A stretch of DNA of 64,000 nucleotides from Thalassotalea euphylliae (GTDB lineage: Bacteria > Pseudomonadota > Gammaproteobacteria > Enterobacterales > Alteromonadaceae): contig NZ_QUOV01000001.1 in NCBI RefSeq assembly GCF_003390395.1, positions 1,550,001 through 1,614,000 on the forward strand, given 5' to 3'. The first letter of the stretch is position 1; every line of letters begins with the position of its first letter. Below are positions 57,954 through 63,653 of this stretch, piece after piece. The notes below the pieces were generated by a model. That model was not told the DNA's origin. It saw only the letters and a list, made by a program, of their open reading frames with translations, and did not search any database. Both the position numbers and the translations under genes were made by a program.

Positions 57954-57989
57954 AAAAAGGCTAACAAAGTTAATTTGTTAGCCTTTTTT
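57954..57989. terminator. Bidirectional terminator at the end of the bufferin cluster
   Basis: AAAAAGGCTAACAAA pairs with TTTGTTAGCCTTTTT around a 5-base loop. T-runs lie on both strands. It follows the doxX stop on the minus strand by about 20 bp. Confidence 0.88.
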
Positions 57990-58010: not shown

Positions 58011-58454
58011 TTAGCTTATCTTTAACTTGTTATCGAGTGAGAATTTGCCACCGCCAAGCAACATTACAGCTGCTAGTGCTAATCCCCAAACAATATGCAT
58101 GTTAATAGCTGCTAATGAGATGTCTAAGTAGGCAATAACAGCAACTATATTTACAATGGTTAGACCTGCTGCAGCAAAGCGTGTAAGTAAACCCGCCGCG
58201 AGTAATACAGGTAATACTAACTCACCAATCGTTGCCATATAAGCGGCGACTTCATAGGATAAAAACGGCACAACATATTCATATTCAAACAGAAACAATG
58301 TTGATTCCCAGTCGTCAATTTTGCTTAAACCGGCTTTAAAGAAAATCCAGCCGATGTAAAGTCGAGCAAATGCCAAGGCTGGCGCTTGCAAGTAATCAAA
58401 CAAACCGAATAAAAAGTTGTAGTAGTCCCTTAGCAGGGTAATTTTGCTATTCAT
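58011..58454 (-). CDS. DoxX family membrane protein
   Basis: A 147-residue DoxX/DoxD-type inner-membrane protein with four helices: the first around APALAFARLYIGWIFFKAGL, then YMATIGELVLPVLLAAGLL, AAGLTIVNIVAVIAYLDI and MHIVWGLALAAVMLLGGG. The family signature RLYIGWIFFKAGLSKI and the GELVLPVLL helix are present. I use the ATG at 58454, with GAGGA six bases upstream. DoxX proteins commonly accompany DUF692/DUF2063 genes in bufferin clusters. Their role may be electron transfer or membrane redox support, but this is unproven. It is the last gene before the bidirectional terminator. Confidence 0.9.
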   Translation of the reverse strand: MNSKITLLRDYYNFLFGLFDYLQAPALAFARLYIGWIFFKAGLSKIDDWESTLFLFEYEYVVPFLSYEVAAYMATIGELVLPVLLAAGLLTRFAAAGLTIVNIVAVIAYLDISLAAINMHIVWGLALAAVMLLGGGKFSLDNKLKIS

Positions 58455-58545
58455 AATTTCCTCATTGTAAAATTTTGTTGATTTGCAGCGTGACGTCAAA
58501 ACTTAGTTAGCCTTGTATCACAGTGCGTTAAAGTTGTTGTGGTGA

Positions 58546-59481
58546 TTAACTTGTATTGCTGACAGCACTTGAGCCTTTGCTAACATCGCTGAGCTCATAA
58601 ATACCCAGCAATAATTGATGCTTAATGGCGTCGGCAAGCCAGTGCGATAAGTCAAATTCATCTAGGCTATGCTCATTGCCTTGCTCAGGGCTGCGCTCTG
58701 CTTGCGAATTGGGCGCTTCGATAGCGACGAGTGCTTCATTGATGGACGCAGACGAGCTGAACTTTTCATAGCCTAGATAATCGACGGCTGATAGCGATAG
58801 TGATTTCGCTTGGTAGCCAAGGCGATAAATGGCGAAATAATTTGTTTGCATCGGCTGTTCAAGCAAGGCACTGATCGCTTGGTTTATCGCTTTTTCAGTT
58901 ACTTGTTCGGCATCTTGCTCATTACCATGCTCTGCAGTGAGCAGAGAATGGAGCTCAGCAATCGGGAAAGGTGAATTTAGCAAGGCAAAACCCGGTGCAA
59001 AATTCATCTTTAAGTGTTGGCTATCGACTTTTTCAAGCAATGACAGACTGCCAAGTGCGAGTGCTTTGTCACCAGCGCGCTCTGCAATAAACATCGCATA
59101 CTCAAACTCGGCGAGATCGCCAAGGTAAGGTAACGCGCTTAATGCCGGTTCATTGGCTAAATAGCTGGCAAATTGCTCACCAATTAATGCCCAATCGGCA
59201 TTTGTTTTTAAGTGAGCTCGTAAGTAATGATTAACTGCGACATCAAAATTTTCTTCTAGCAAGGCTTTTACAGCAGGAAAACTGTTAGCAAGTGAGCGTT
59301 TGGCACTCGCTAAAAAATTGTTCTGATAAATCGTTAATCCAACGTTGTCGAAAGCTTCGCTAGCACCAGAATTAGCCGCTTTGTCTCCAGAATTTGGCTG
59401 CATAATTGCCGCCAATAGATCATTTTGATAGTGCGTTAATGCGCTGCTTGATGGTTTACTTGATGAGTTAGTTAATGACAT
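58546..59481 (-). CDS. bufC: BufC-like DUF2063 protein, partner of the DUF692 enzyme
   Basis: A 311-residue protein with an N-terminal DUF2063 domain (about residues 15-130). Typical elements are LTIYQNNFLASAKRSLANSF, FPAVKALLEENFDVAVNHYL and the following YLPYLGDLAEFEYA-like ALPYLGDLAEFEYAMFIAE. Proteins of this type form a complex with the DUF692 enzyme and are needed to modify the peptide substrate. The C-terminal ~150 residues are variable and rich in Ser/Glu/Ala. The start at 59481 overlaps the end of bufB by 10 bp, implying translational coupling. An upstream ATG at 59529 would lie deeper inside bufB and gives a less typical N-terminus. Confidence 0.87.
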   Translation of the reverse strand: MSLTNSSSKPSSSALTHYQNDLLAAIMQPNSGDKAANSGASEAFDNVGLTIYQNNFLASAKRSLANSFPAVKALLEENFDVAVNHYLRAHLKTNADWALIGEQFASYLANEPALSALPYLGDLAEFEYAMFIAERAGDKALALGSLSLLEKVDSQHLKMNFAPGFALLNSPFPIAELHSLLTAEHGNEQDAEQVTEKAINQAISALLEQPMQTNYFAIYRLGYQAKSLSLSAVDYLGYEKFSSSASINEALVAIEAPNSQAERSPEQGNEHSLDEFDLSHWLADAIKHQLLLGIYELSDVSKGSSAVSNTS

Positions 59482-60419
59482 GGCAGCACCTGCTTGGCAA
59501 TTTTTCTCGCTAACTGTGCTTGTTGGCATAACGTCTGCCAGTCAGGCAAGTCCATATCCCATTCAATCAAGGTTGGCACTGCACCAAAACGCGTTAATGC
59601 CGTTTCGTATAATCGCCAAACATCGCCAGACACTGGCTGACTATGGTCGTCAATCATTACGCCTGTTTCGCCAACTGGGCTGCATCCCGCCAAGTGAATT
59701 TCACCAATCACATGACTTGGAAACTCATATAACTGTGCCAAGGCAAGATCAACGGGTTTCGTTGCTTTGTCATGGGCACCATTTTGTTTCGAATTGGCAG
59801 CTTGAGTGTTTATTGCGTTAACCATTAAATTGTTTAAATCTAACAGCAAACGACAATCTGTTTGTCGGCAGAGCTCAATCAAGAACTCACTTTCACTCAT
59901 GGTCGAATTCGCTGGAGTGATATAAGCAGACAAGTTTTCTACGAGAATACGACGGCCAAGTTGTTGCTGAACTTTGTTTACATTCGCCACCATAACAGCC
60001 AGGCTTTCTTGATTAAATGGCACAGGCAGTAAATCACCAGCGTGTATCGTTAAATCGTTTAGTTGTCCCCAACTAAAACAAGCATGATCTGATACCAGTA
60101 TTGGCTGAACTTGTTCCACTAACTCACTAAAGCGCTTTAAGTGTGGTTCAGGTACTGGCTCGGTTGAACCTAGTCCAAGTGAAGTTGCGTGTAAGCTGAC
60201 CGCGTATTGCGCTTTGATATCGTTGAGAATCGCTTGAGTGATCCCTCCTTTTGCAAAGAAGTTTTCCACGTGAACTTCAACGAAATCAATATTAAAGGGG
60301 GAAGTCAGCGCGTCTTGATAATGAACATGACGCAAACCAACACCAATAAGAGGTAGTACTTGCGATTGCTCGCTGCTGATGCTTTTATGGTTTTGACGTT
60401 GTGTTAATTGATAAGACAT
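59472..60419 (-). CDS. bufB: BufB-like DUF692 multinuclear non-haem iron oxidative enzyme
   Basis: A 315-residue DUF692 (MNIO) TIM-barrel enzyme. Family segments: PLIGVGLRHVHYQDAL near the start, DFVEVHVENFF, AVSLHATSLGLGSTEP (metal-site histidine), LVSDHACFSWGQL, ILVENLSAYITP, LLLDLNNLMVN, GEIHLAGC and the late LIEWDMDLPDW. The His, Asp and Glu residues that bind two or three irons in known MNIO enzymes are thus visible. Characterised relatives oxidise cysteines of a precursor peptide to thiooxazole-type heterocycles. I use the ATG at 60419, preceded by GGAAGGA five bases upstream; an earlier in-frame ATG adds a non-homologous start. It follows bufA by 75 bp, with a small palindrome between. 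Confidence 0.9.
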   Translation of the reverse strand: MSYQLTQRQNHKSISSEQSQVLPLIGVGLRHVHYQDALTSPFNIDFVEVHVENFFAKGGITQAILNDIKAQYAVSLHATSLGLGSTEPVPEPHLKRFSELVEQVQPILVSDHACFSWGQLNDLTIHAGDLLPVPFNQESLAVMVANVNKVQQQLGRRILVENLSAYITPANSTMSESEFLIELCRQTDCRLLLDLNNLMVNAINTQAANSKQNGAHDKATKPVDLALAQLYEFPSHVIGEIHLAGCSPVGETGVMIDDHSQPVSGDVWRLYETALTRFGAVPTLIEWDMDLPDWQTLCQQAQLARKIAKQVLPCH

Positions 60420-60462
60420 CGCTTCCTTCCCAACATGATGAACTGTCTTAATTGAACCTTTT

Positions 60463-60474
60463 GGGTAGCTACCC
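60463..60474. other. Palindrome between bufA and bufB
   Basis: GGGTAGCTACCC is a perfect 12-bp palindrome in the 75-bp gap after the bufA stop. It could form a small RNA hairpin that stabilises the bufA part of the transcript or slows read-through into bufB. It has no T-run. Confidence 0.35.
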
Positions 60475-60494
60475 GAGGCAGCCACCTAGTTCGG

Positions 60495-60797
60495 CTAGCT
60501 GTTTTGCATCGCCTTAAATTTAGCTTTCGCTTCTTTACGTAGCATGCCACCTAATGACTCACAGCTACCTTTATTCACTAAGCGCCACTCGCCTGGATCA
60601 TTGTCAATGGTTGATTGACCTGCACAAGAGTGGGTACCTGCTAAGTTACCGCAGTCATTTTGGCCAGCAGGGCTAATGCCGTAGCAACGCTCTTTGGGAG
60701 CGCGTTTACGCTCGTTATCAGCAGCTTCAGCGCTGTTGATGACACCCATAGATACGACCGCTGCAAGTGCCGCTGAAAGTGCTAATTGATTTTTCAT
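60495..60797 (-). CDS. bufA: DUF2282 family bufferin-type metallophore precursor
   Basis: A 100-residue exported peptide precursor. The signal peptide (MKNQLALSAALAAVVSMGVI, cleavage after NSAEA) is followed by a short core with four cysteines: C38 (ERCYGISPAGQNDCG), C49, C58 (THSCAGQ) and C79 (NKGSCESLGGML). These patterns define DUF2282, a bufferin family. In such systems a DUF692 enzyme with its partner converts core cysteines to thiooxazoles, and the exported product binds copper. The adjacent bufB and bufC genes support this. A very good ribosome site (AGGAG) suggests high expression. Which cysteines are modified, and the metal bound, cannot be read from sequence. Confidence 0.88.
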   Translation of the reverse strand: MKNQLALSAALAAVVSMGVINSAEAADNERKRAPKERCYGISPAGQNDCGNLAGTHSCAGQSTIDNDPGEWRLVNKGSCESLGGMLRKEAKAKFKAMQNS

Positions 60798-60837
60798 AAA
60801 AAATCTCCTGTTAAACGTTAATGCTTAGGCTGAACGG

Positions 60838-61149
60838 CTAGGCGACAAGGTCGCGCAAAGCCTGTTCGTTCATTAGACCCGAGCTTTGGGTTTTTACTTC
60901 GCCATTTTCGATAACAATTATTGCGGGTATTGAGCGAATGCCGAATTTTTGTGCCAACATTGGCAGTTCATCTACATTTGCTTTAACACCAGTTGCTTCG
61001 ATGGCATCACCACTAAATACTTTTTCGAATACTGGCATCATGGCGCGACATGGCGCGCACCACGGTGCCCAGAAGTCAATTACGATTTTGTCATTGTTAG
61101 CGATTAACTCAGCAAAATGATCAATATCGGTTACTTCAATTGCCGCCAT
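60838..61149 (-). CDS. Thioredoxin family protein
   Basis: A 103-residue cytosolic thioredoxin. The active site is WCAPCR in FWAPWCAPCRAMMPVFEKVF, with the conserved cis-proline in FGIRSIPAIIVIENGE. The second active-site residue is Ala instead of the usual Gly, a common variant. There is no signal peptide, so it would act on cytosolic thiols, for example keeping precursor cysteines reduced before export. That role is an inference from its position: two bases after the YHS gene, with GAGGAC overlapping that gene's end, and 40 bp before bufA. Confidence 0.93.
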   Translation of the reverse strand: MAAIEVTDIDHFAELIANNDKIVIDFWAPWCAPCRAMMPVFEKVFSGDAIEATGVKANVDELPMLAQKFGIRSIPAIIVIENGEVKTQSSGLMNEQALRDLVA

Positions 61150-61151
61150 TA

Positions 61152-61628
61152 TTAGTCCTCTGCAAGCTCTTCTAATGTTTTATCTTTGATATCGCCCCAA
61201 ATATCGTCTGACTTATCAATGTTACCTTGCGTGTCTTGCACCCAACGGTTTTGAACATTTTTGTTTAGGTTAAGGTAAAGTTTGTTATCAACGATTTTCC
61301 AAGCTGTTGGATCAGTGTCGAATTTCTTCTCCATCGTCACACCGAAAGCACAGTAACCGCCGTACTGTGGAGCGTATTTATCCGGGTTTGCTCTAAACTT
61401 GTCGCGGTTAGACTCTGAGCTAAAGCGGTAGATGGCACCTTTATGAGTTGCAGTAAAGTTGATGTCACCTTCAACCGGCTTATTCATTGTGAAGTAAGCC
61501 ACTGGATCAAAACCTTTAATGGCTAAGTCGTTAGCATCTGCGTTCATCTCAACATCAGCAGCGAAGCTGAAGCTAGATGCTGCTAATAAAAGGCTGGCTG
61601 TAATTGATTTAAGTGCAAAGTTTTTCAT
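61152..61628 (-). CDS. Exported YHS-domain protein
   Basis: A 158-residue protein with a signal peptide (KNFALKSITASLLLAASSFS, ending SFA). A YHS domain runs from about residue 38 to 85: IKGFDPVAYF is the entry strand and GGYCAFGVTM carries the single conserved cysteine. YHS domains are small metal-binding modules also found in copper ATPases and oxygenase subunits. I start at the ATG at 61628, which has GAGGA upstream; longer in-frame starts reach into the promoter region and lack ribosome sites. It is the first gene of the minus-strand cluster, so its product probably acts with the bufferin in the periplasm. Confidence 0.87.
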   Translation of the reverse strand: MKNFALKSITASLLLAASSFSFAADVEMNADANDLAIKGFDPVAYFTMNKPVEGDINFTATHKGAIYRFSSESNRDKFRANPDKYAPQYGGYCAFGVTMEKKFDTDPTAWKIVDNKLYLNLNKNVQNRWVQDTQGNIDKSDDIWGDIKDKTLEELAED

Positions 61629-61726
61629 TTTGTATATCCTCATCATTTTAAATTCGATTGCAGCCAATTTGCTGCTGCGTCGTAGTGATGAAAATAGTAC
61701 TGCCGAAATGAAACGGCTTGGGCTAC

Positions 61727-61758
61727 AATCGTCCAAAAAATCGTGCAAATCGTCCAAA
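61727..61758. promoter_or_regulatory. Direct repeats, candidate AraC-family operator
   Basis: AATCGTCCAAA occurs at 61727-61737 and again at 61748-61758, 21 bp apart (two helical turns). A partial copy, AATCGTGCA, lies between them at 61739-61747. AraC-family proteins typically bind such direct repeats. The site lies ~50 bp before the araC-type gene and ~100 bp before the YHS gene. Confidence 0.55.
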
Positions 61759-61808: not shown

Positions 61809-62651
61809 ATGGATCAACTATCACAAATTATTCAAGATTTTAGTATTCAAGCTGGGGTGTTTTACACTGGCCAATTGTGTGGTTTATCGGCGTTTGGCGA
61901 TGAAAACCATGTTGAAGGCCATATTCATATATTGCACAGCGGTACCTTAACTCTTGCTGATGCAGACGGCAGCGAGCAGTTACTTGATGAACCAAGTATT
62001 GTATTTTTCCCTCGGCCTAAACAGCATCGCTTGCGCGCAACTGAGTCTGACAATGCAGAGGTGATTTGTGCAACCGTGCAATATGGCATTGGCCAGCAAA
62101 GTCCACTAACCCAAGCATTACCAGAAGCAATCATTCTTCCCTTGCGTCAAGCAACAGCACTAAACGATAGCTTTGCGTGGATGGTGAACGAAGCTTTGTC
62201 AGACAATTTAGGCAAGCAAACTATTTTAAATCGCCTGATGGAAGTTTTTATAGTGTGCTTGTTAAGGCATTTAATTACTGAGCGTAAAATTGAGCAAGGT
62301 TTGCTTGCTGGTTTATCTCATCCGTTTTTATCTAAAGTAATTAGTGCTATGCACAACGAGCCTGCTCACCCTTGGGGACTAGATGAAATGGCTGAAGTGG
62401 CATTGATGTCGCGCTCTAAATTCTCTCCCTTGTTTAAGCAAGTATTAGGTGAAACACCAAACGATTATTTGACTCGCTGGCGAGTTTCATTGGCACAAAA
62501 GCATCTGCTAAGCGGTAAAAGTGTTGACCATTGTGCCCAACTTGTCGGTTATGAAAGCCCGTCAACATTATCACGCGCCTTTAACAAAACGTGTCAACTA
62601 TCGCCGAAAGCTTGGTTGAAAAAAGCCTTGGAAGAAGCGCAGCAAACCTAG
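61809..62651 (+). CDS. AraC family transcriptional regulator (cupin plus AraC HTH)
   Basis: A 280-residue regulator. The N-terminal ~110 residues form a cupin-like sensor (GDENHVEGHIHILHSGTL, then VFFPRPKQHRLRATESDNAE) with several histidines that could hold a metal. The C-terminal AraC/XylS domain has two helix-turn-helix units, LDEMAEVALMSRSKFSPLFK with LGETPNDYLTRWR, and VDHCAQLVGYESPSTLSRAF. The layout matches the cupin_6/AraC class that controls stress and redox genes. It is divergent from the YHS-thioredoxin-bufferin cluster, and direct repeats between them make it the likely regulator. Signal unknown; a metal or an oxidant is plausible. Confidence 0.9.
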   Translation: MDQLSQIIQDFSIQAGVFYTGQLCGLSAFGDENHVEGHIHILHSGTLTLADADGSEQLLDEPSIVFFPRPKQHRLRATESDNAEVICATVQYGIGQQSPLTQALPEAIILPLRQATALNDSFAWMVNEALSDNLGKQTILNRLMEVFIVCLLRHLITERKIEQGLLAGLSHPFLSKVISAMHNEPAHPWGLDEMAEVALMSRSKFSPLFKQVLGETPNDYLTRWRVSLAQKHLLSGKSVDHCAQLVGYESPSTLSRAFNKTCQLSPKAWLKKALEEAQQT

Positions 62652-62734: not shown

Positions 62735-63373
62735 ATGAACCTGATAGCGTGTCCAATTTTCAATAGCCTTTCTTCGTCAAGTATTAGTCTTGTTAAAGAG
62801 CAAGCCAGCACTTTTAGTGTGTCTGCCGGTACTCGTTTATTTGAAACAACAAATGAATGTCAAATGATGCCAATTGTCACCAGCGGTACAATAAGGGTGT
62901 TTTCGCAAAGTGATACGGGCCGAGAAATTACACTTTATCGCGTTAGCCCTGAGCAACTTTGTATCTTAACAATCAGTTGTTTACTTAGCGGCGATCGCTA
63001 TCCTGCTAGCAGTATTGCCGAAACAGAGGTGTCAGGTATTAGCGTACCTAAATCGCTTTTCTTAGAGTTGATGGCGAGTGAGCCGAGCTTTAGCGCACAA
63101 ATATTTCATACTTTTTCATATCGCATTACCCATTTAATGCAATTAGTGGATGCTGTCGCGTTTAAAAAATTAGACAAACGTTTAGCGCTCTACTTATTAG
63201 AGCAAGGCCCGGTTATTACTTGCTCACATCAGAAAATTGCTGATGAATTTGGGAGCGTTCGTGAAATCATCAGTCGTTTATTAAAACAGTTTGAAGACAA
63301 GGGAATAGTTGCCTTGTCGAGAAAACAAATACAGCTTATTGACCCAGATCAACTAAGGTTGTTTGTCGATTAG
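62735..63373 (+). CDS. Crp/Fnr family transcriptional regulator
   Basis: A 212-residue regulator. The N-terminal cyclic-nucleotide-binding-like barrel (FSVSAGTRLFETTNECQMMP, VFSQSDTGREITLYRVSPEQ) is followed by a dimerisation helix (FSYRITHLMQLVDAVAFKKL). A C-terminal winged helix follows, with recognition region SHQKIADEFGSVREIISRLL. It lacks the spaced cysteine cluster of classical FNR; three Cys residues (CILTISC and one near the start) could sense redox but are not the [4Fe-4S] pattern. A palindrome just after its stop suggests it controls the DUF2892 gene and perhaps itself. Monocistronic start with ATG at 62735. Confidence 0.9.
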   Translation: MNLIACPIFNSLSSSSISLVKEQASTFSVSAGTRLFETTNECQMMPIVTSGTIRVFSQSDTGREITLYRVSPEQLCILTISCLLSGDRYPASSIAETEVSGISVPKSLFLELMASEPSFSAQIFHTFSYRITHLMQLVDAVAFKKLDKRLALYLLEQGPVITCSHQKIADEFGSVREIISRLLKQFEDKGIVALSRKQIQLIDPDQLRLFVD

Positions 63374-63464: not shown

Positions 63465-63653
63465 ATGACGTTAAATGTTGGCACGATCGATCGCATCTTA
63501 CGGGTTTTATTAGGTTCACTACTTATTATTTGGGTGATTATGGGCGGGCCTCTATGGGCTTGGCTTGGTGCTGTATTAGTGGCAACTGGCCTTATAAAAT
63601 TTTGCCCTGCGTATGCAATATTCGGTGTTAAAACCTGTAAAACCAAGGGATAA
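63465..63653 (+). CDS. DUF2892 small inner-membrane protein
   Basis: A 62-residue DUF2892 protein (the membrane part of YgaP-like proteins). The N-terminus NVGTIDRILRVLLGSLLIIW forms the first helix and WAWLGAVLVATGLIKFCPAY the second. It ends FGVKTCKTK, with two cysteines (FCP and KTC) in the family pattern. In YgaP this region anchors a rhodanese domain, absent here. AAGAGGAAAAAT is the ribosome site. It follows the Crp/Fnr-family gene, a recurrent pairing, and has its own operator and promoter. Function unknown, probably in sulfur or redox metabolism. Confidence 0.88.
   Translation: MTLNVGTIDRILRVLLGSLLIIWVIMGGPLWAWLGAVLVATGLIKFCPAYAIFGVKTCKTKG

Follow-up and report, generated by a model that had tools for sequence, protein, structure and literature searches.

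Bufferins are known as copper buffers, and conversion of cysteines to thiooxazoles and copper binding have been described for them (PMC12452194, PMC12668002). In Buf1-type peptides it is the central Cys pair that becomes thiooxazoles and the outer pair that forms a disulfide, and the operons are described as having a core of four genes, to which additional conserved genes are joined in extremely low proportions (PMC12452194). Caulobacter CC3254-CC3257 (DUF2282-DUF692-DUF2063-DoxX) form part of the sigma-F regulon (PMC3511200), and at the NA1000 locus the DUF2282, DUF692 and DoxX genes were raised by copper whatever the condition or cell type examined (PMC8224329). The gig operons of Cupriavidus metallidurans and Legionella pneumophila, made of the same four families, respond to copper or gold (PMC5413113). 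Here, we analyse a locus of this kind from Thalassotalea euphylliae, which lies in a stretch of 64,000 nucleotides (contig NZ_QUOV01000001.1, positions 1,550,001 to 1,614,000; hereafter the window, to which our coordinates refer) and in which a Buf1 bufferin operon is headed by genes for a secreted YHS-domain protein and a thioredoxin and faces a gene for an AraC-family regulator related to E. coli RclR. We think it fairly likely that this operon has been recruited into an envelope stress module that responds to thiol oxidants, with the RclR-like AraC activator in control.

As far as its core is concerned, the locus follows the known pattern. Four genes lie together on the minus strand, each exceeding its Pfam gathering score, in the order bufA (60495..60797; Buf1 or DUF2282 precursor, PF10048, 79.8 bits), bufB (59472..60419; MNIO or DUF692 enzyme, PF05114 (MbnB_TglH_ChrH), 280.4 bits), bufC (58546..59481; DUF2063 partner, PF09836, 52.5 bits) and doxX, also bufD (58011..58454; membrane protein, PF07681, 61.3 bits, and 55.3 bits with the HvfX-family model, below its cut-off of 80). 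These family matches support the bufferin-type RiPP (ribosomally synthesised and post-translationally modified peptide) cluster of the original prediction, here of the Buf1/DUF2282 type, and the 10-bp overlap of bufB and bufC that came with it is found when BufC starts at the second ATG (59481, with bufB ending at 59472) instead of the first (59529). The idea of a new-looking gene set, however, did not hold for the core: judged by gene content and order, it is not new, as it has the gene order of Caulobacter vibrioides CC3254-57 (PMC3511200) and the same composition as the gig operons. Differences lie around the core. The Caulobacter operon is under control of the extracytoplasmic function sigma factor sigma-F and NrsF and, as listed in PMC3511200, has neither YHS nor thioredoxin, whereas the operon analysed here has an AraC/Cupin_6 regulator and two extra genes; likewise, the gig operons consist of four genes only as listed in PMC5413113, where RpoS influence and a metal regulator yet to be identified were proposed for Legionella, and YHS and thioredoxin are added in our case. 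The less usual parts are the YHS and cytosolic thioredoxin genes heading the operon and the RclR-like regulator with its promoter. A term search of the main text of PMC12452194 returned none of 'YHS', 'thioredoxin' and 'AraC', and among the open-licence papers listed in our searches we found no description of a YHS association with bufferin genes.

On the minus strand the full order is yhs-trx-bufA-bufB-bufC-doxX, with gaps of 2, 40, 75, -10 and 91 bp, and these genes are presumably read from one promoter; a 180-bp gap separates the YHS gene (61152..61628) from the divergent AraC/Cupin_6 gene, which starts at 61809. As 61628 is the YHS start codon, both the YHS and the thioredoxin gene (60838..61149) fall within the interval 58011..61628 for which the four-gene cluster had been predicted.

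How widely is this extended gene set distributed? Among 78 loci fetched by similarity to our BufA and examined over at most 7 kb on each side (L113, which is without BufA, was omitted), family clustering recovered BufA in 77, BufB in 75, BufC in 75 and DoxX in 67, 57 times on the same strand and 10 times on the opposite one. YHS was present in 58 and an RclR-like AraC in 47 of the 78, anywhere in the examined stretch, and the thioredoxin cluster lay just upstream of bufA in 33. A broader set of 122 distinct BufBs combined relatives with a class-wide sample (omitting L001, L002, L004, L005, L157, identical BufBs and those shorter than 200 aa or below 250 bits, near-identical ones being kept), and YHS was counted as linked if within 1.5 kb of bufA on the same strand. 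With loci from genome-wide searches spanning about 1.4 kb upstream of bufA, and L013, L018, L022 and L055 less than 900 bp, so that a more distant YHS would escape, 63 of the 122 BufB loci had a YHS-linked bufA. In a quick maximum likelihood tree of BufB all 63 fell into one clade of 73 members (support of 99 in the Shimodaira-Hasegawa-like approximate likelihood ratio test, SH-aLRT), leaving ten clade members without YHS and no linkage (0/49) outside. The YHS label changes 6 times on this tree compared to about 41 times in shuffles, and together with the single clade this suggests that YHS linkage was probably gained once and then lost several times. Across 98 relatives, with tables read by eye, a YHS match lay within 2 kb at 19 of 43 DUF2282 places.

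Variants of the locus were seen along the way. Alteromonas sediminis has three DUF2282 loci in one species (L086, L067, L095); of these, L086 is perhaps a decayed copy, with weak, fragmentary matches to BufB (42 bits) and BufC (55 bits). Motiliproteus coralliicola (L075) has a rearranged locus with DoxX and an inverted RclR-like AraC gene between bufA and bufB.

Upstream of yhs there is a conserved promoter footprint. The intergenic region carries a predicted operator, a direct repeat of TGGACGAT with a 21-bp period (61728..61756, minus strand), whose distal and proximal half-sites are at 61756-61749 and 61735-61728, and 28 bp past the latter follows a predicted -10 hexamer, TACTAT (61694..61699, minus strand). 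A third, imperfect half-site copy (ATCGTGCA, 61747-61740) sits between the 21-bp pair, as it does in the close relatives L030 and L185. The operator emerged from a motif search in relatives' upstreams: 63 non-redundant YHS upstreams (of 82) returned ATCGTCCAA and flanks with a likelihood gain of 332.7, compared to 60.7 and 68.1 in two single-base shuffles, which preserve base content only. Of the 63 upstreams left after de-duplication, 25 had half-sites spaced by exactly 21 bp, followed by spacings of 20 and 41 with 4 each; counting duplicates, some of which are the same locus fetched twice, 32 pairs had the 21-bp spacing versus 5 for the next. When 51 promoters with a half-site within one mismatch were aligned (19 duplicate or near-duplicate loci omitted), a -10 box TAnnnT stood out 28 bp past the proximal half-site, with T in 42, A in 45 and T in 43. 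The half-sites fit an activator next to the -35 position, and from this we infer activation of yhs.

A 65-bp matrix trained on 44 of these 51 promoters (threshold 8) passes in 69 of 86 operon-YHS upstreams with the same kind of duplicates included, and in 48 of the 63 de-duplicated ones; 40 of the 63 had been in the training set. It passes in none of 59 bufA upstreams without YHS and likewise in none of 43 that precede other YHS genes. Shuffled sequences score 3.8 at best and reversed upstreams at most -4.1, and in leave-one-out runs 43 of the 44 training promoters pass. Operator and regulator, as seen in comparison of loci, go together: of 57 long-flank YHS loci, 39 have both, 3 the regulator alone, 4 the operator alone and 11 neither (34, 3, 4 and 11 among 52 after de-duplication), so that in counts that ignore relatedness the operator accompanies 34 of 37 loci with the regulator versus 4 of 15 without (39/42 versus 4/15 raw). 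Two operator-alone loci, L071 and L082, end early at contig ends. The genome itself holds a single perfect operator copy. A wider regulon found no footing there: allowing up to two mismatches gives 2 matches, fewer than the 7 of the reversed control pattern, and we therefore give weight to the perfect copy alone. At up to one mismatch the operator occurs in 23 of 98 relatives at 28 places; by coordinates, 7 of these are at this regulator-YHS locus (G000, G001, G005, G006, G007, G013, G051), and the remaining 21 resemble background, the reversed control pattern having matched in similar numbers.

The regulator opposite this promoter (61809..62651, plus strand; Pfam Cupin_6, 84.5 bits, and HTH_18, 67.6 bits) is 27.6% identical to E. 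coli RclR over 239 aa (E 1e-26). Its Cys24, His40, His73 and Cys87 match Cys21, His42, His75 and Cys89 of RclR, and His40, His73 and Cys87 are conserved in all of 37 divergent regulators (35 distinct), Cys24 in 34 of them. Hypochlorous acid (HOCl) activates RclR by way of a disulfide between Cys21 and Cys89 (PMC7464077), and RclA, which RclR controls, is a copper(II) reductase giving protection from HOCl in combination with copper (PMC7527725). Both systems have an AraC-family activator divergent from its targets, with Cys21/Cys89 aligning with Cys24/Cys87. What sets them apart, by names, are the target genes, namely a cupric reductase, RclB and a DUF417 protein in E. coli and, as presumed targets, YHS, thioredoxin and bufferin genes here.

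There are also loci in which the regulator and YHS occur without the bufferin genes. A genome of the same genus (G006, locus L185) has regulator-YHS-thioredoxin without bufABC-doxX, flanked by the 281-aa neighbour also found beside the locus in the window, which we take to be KdsA; DUF2282 was not found in this genome, one MNIO is encoded elsewhere and both operator half-sites are kept. G447 (L154) combines regulator and YHS with no bufferin genes within the 3.3 kb examined, and in its 160-contig assembly neither MNIO nor DUF2282 was found; one clear half-site at one mismatch is present and the promoter passes the matrix, for which it had been among the training promoters. With regulator and YHS present in both genomes and no DUF2282 bufferin there, YHS is not merely a part of the bufferin system. 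L187 in genome G003 has YHS-thioredoxin-BufA-DoxX without BufB and BufC adjoining, and the only MNIO found in that genome sits at another bufferin locus, from where it may serve both precursors.

These data bear on a more conventional view, which takes the locus for an ordinary bufferin operon responding to copper, with YHS and thioredoxin as passengers and the AraC protein as a direct sensor of copper or its effects via Cys24, His40, His73 and Cys87. It can draw on the core order, shared with the copper-induced CC3254-57 of Caulobacter, and on the two Cys and two His of the cupin domain, whose conservation in 34 to 37 of the 37 regulators would also suit a metal site. A passenger, though, would hardly stay beside bufA across a clade (63 of 73), and the two loci without a DUF2282 bufferin nevertheless have regulator, YHS and operator sequence. 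So to our minds, such a scenario is rather unlikely, and we prefer recruitment of the bufferin operon into an oxidant-controlled module.

The YHS protein of this proposed module has a signal-peptide-like N-terminus and a single Cys (Cys93), which lies in a GGYCA motif. It is like the YHS_seleno_dom family (NF041384) in scoring over the curated cut-off (160.5 bits over 110 of 113 model positions, cut-off 70; Pfam YHS, 31.8 bits, cut-off 30.3) and in sharing the Cys after a GG-aromatic. It differs from other family members by accompanying the regulator and promoter and by the residues of an operon subfamily, Gly96, Lys102, Asn122 and Gln126, which are fixed in 63 of 63 and in a minority or absent among 28 others. 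For one member of YHS_seleno_dom the entry in PMC13188914 gives selenocysteine, within a GxU motif, and this speaks for a redox or soft-metal role of the YHS Cys. In the genome of the window there is a second YHS_seleno protein (L005:1405-1863; G000 C1 at about 2634 kb), whose N-terminus is lipoprotein-like and whose gene lacks the promoter element; no bufferin genes lie within the 3.3 kb examined around it. A fold search with the YHS model (mean predicted local distance difference test score, pLDDT, 70.6; predicted template modelling score, pTM, 0.56) gave no match at E <= 0.001 among 40, and its top matches, to adenylate kinase 9 (YHS-like repeats) and a similar chain of the sperm doublet, followed by toluene monooxygenases, are uninformative on function. 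A sequence search of solved structures yielded two weak YHS-like repeat matches only, and no YHS-BufA fusion was present among 120 listed of 7989 YHS matches (8000 candidates scored).

A signal-peptide-like N-terminus, an invariant Cys and a gene near the enzyme might also make the YHS protein a second substrate of BufB/BufC, its GGYCA cysteine being turned into a thiooxazole, all the more so as MNIOs may also modify proteins (PMC12452194). We regard this as most improbable: the GGYC/GGFC Cys is invariant in the 63 operon-type proteins and equally in all 28 YHS proteins encoded at a distance from bufferin genes and hence does not indicate modification by an MNIO, and an operon-type YHS is encoded in G447 with its apparent lack of MNIO and DUF2282.

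The thioredoxin (WCAPC motif; TIGR01068, 97.4 bits, cut-off 96.8), whose gene follows YHS after 2 bp and in which no signal peptide was seen, is encoded no more than 700 bp away from bufA in 37 of the 63 loci with YHS linkage. For a related reaction, a reductant is reported to be needed for the HvfA thiols and the iron site (PMC13419390). That thioredoxin is kept with YHS where bufA is gone points, partly at least, to regulator resetting or general thiol care.

Precursor and enzyme, for their part, appear intact. BufA has exactly four Cys (C38, C49, C58, C79), their columns being invariant in 122 of 122 relatives, and an N-terminus which, judged by eye, is signal-peptide-like, so the features of the precursor named in the original prediction were borne out. 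In the YHS clade, BufA is also distinct in positions other than the Cys: it carries Asn51-x-x-Gly-Thr-His-Ser before the third Cys, all 73 members having the letters named, and its C-terminal tail contains Lys/Arg. Loss of iron ligands from the DUF692 protein had been named as a point that would speak against a bufferin system; at the sequence level, His77, His112, Glu161, Asp194, Asn197, His242, Asp257, His259 and Glu286 of BufB, which we take to be the iron ligands of the MNIO, are each present in at least 121 of 122 relatives. These metal-site motifs align with the solved MNIO 3BWW, apart from a slip of the printed alignment around His242, a residue that pairs with the corresponding motif in 8HCI and 7DZ9. 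BufB scores 294.1 bits with the NCBIfam model MNIO_BufB, under the cut-off of 310, which is a curated naming threshold and not a mechanistic feature. A sequence search of solved structures with BufA gave one chance-level match only (E 0.84). By analogy with described Buf1 peptides, C49 and C58 would become thiooxazoles with a C38-C79 disulfide, and BufA would bind copper; metal and modification were presented as inferred in the original prediction and have the same status after our analysis. That the locus no longer makes a modified metallophore and BufA is an unmodified Cys protein, as at least one relative (L187) with bufA and no adjoining bufB/bufC might suggest, is highly unlikely given open bufB and bufC frames over cut-off, metal-site motifs and all four precursor Cys kept. 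The same genome has a second bufferin cluster (L002:739-3132; G000 C1 at about 585 kb) of precursor, MNIO and DUF2063 partner, in which the precursor is of the BufA2 family (Buf2, 136.9 bits) and has a lipoprotein-like N-terminus and two six-Cys repeats.

For a bufferin operon in an RclR-like, thiol-oxidant-controlled module, the following course may be envisaged. An oxidant, be it copper-driven, reactive chlorine or another thiol oxidant, would join Cys24 and Cys87 of the regulator, as RclR suggests, and the oxidised form would activate from the tandem TGGACGAT sites predicted by comparison of relatives. BufB and BufC would then act on BufA in the cytoplasm, converting C49 and C58 and leaving C38 and C79 for the disulfide in the manner of Caulobacter Buf1, and BufA, exported via Sec, would bind copper in the periplasm. 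There, the secreted YHS protein may handle metal or oxidised thiols through its single invariant Cys, acting independently of the bufferin, as supported by the loci that lack one. Thioredoxin may keep cytosolic thiols reduced, be it those of the precursor, in support of the MNIO reaction or to reset the regulator. The most secure parts of this proposal, judged from the DNA, are the gene set, the single clade and the promoter footprint; the conserved sensor residues and the YHS loci without bufferin lend comparative support, and the inducer and the role of YHS are its least secure parts.

Several observations weigh against this proposal. The regulator reaches 106.4 bits with the NCBIfam RclR model, where the cut-off is 400, so it is a relative of RclR with the sensor residues and not established as RclR, and its signal may be a different one. 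In E. coli, the rcl intergenic region has no TGGACGAT tandem and carries a TGATATTT direct repeat at 20 bp instead. The promoter is missing in 15 of the 63 de-duplicated YHS upstreams and passes the matrix in 8 of the 23 outside training, which are mostly without clear half-sites; to this may be added the overlap with the training set and the disregard of relatedness in the counts above. Thioredoxin is not in place in 26 of the 63 YHS-linked loci. With its one Cys, the operon YHS does not have the combination of Asp and three Cys that has been proposed to bind copper in YHS/TRASH domains (PMC4626032). Finally, in 369 genomes of the class YHS is adjacent, by eye, in 3 of 97 genomes with DUF2282, one of these 3 having a broken, sub-threshold YHS frame, which argues that the link of YHS and bufferin is confined to one lineage, consistent with the low proportions of additional genes in PMC12452194.

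If a switch based on a Cys pair in an AraC protein does control copper-buffering peptides, the question of what stress bufferins respond to in the marine environment becomes directly testable, and one promoter and one regulator would suffice for it. There are hints of a joint defence against copper and oxidants, in an arrangement common to many marine relatives, and if that is true, bufferins may belong to oxidant defence as well as copper defence. More specifically, an RclR-type disulfide switch of a marine lineage may set a secreted single-Cys YHS protein, which would work whether or not a bufferin is present, and a thiooxazole peptide jointly in the periplasm against copper together with reactive chlorine or other thiol oxidants, with YHS as a new class of envelope stress protein; this is possible, and we offer it tentatively, with more doubt than confidence. 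In any event, the locus provides secreted YHS_seleno proteins with a genetic context and with natural cases that have or lack a bufferin.

Some features flank the operon. Past doxX, the terminal hairpin of the original prediction is present at 57954..57988 (minus strand) as a terminator-like structure with a 15-pair stem (-18.0 kcal/mol by RNA fold) and T-rich on both strands; a consensus terminator scan did not list it and gave 3 other terminator-like sites versus 4.8 by chance. Downstream of the AraC gene are genes for a Crp-family regulator (62735-63373) and a YgaP-like membrane protein (63465-63653). Among 113 loci the Crp query matched its own locus only, and later also the near-identical genome G001 (L183); the query with the YgaP-like transmembrane protein matched none of the 113 and later a single locus (L191), where the YHS gene next to it is unrelated. 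We do not count either gene as part of the system. Among named organisms, the closest BufA is that of Thalassotalea algicola (86%) and the closest YHS that of T. euphylliae (76%).

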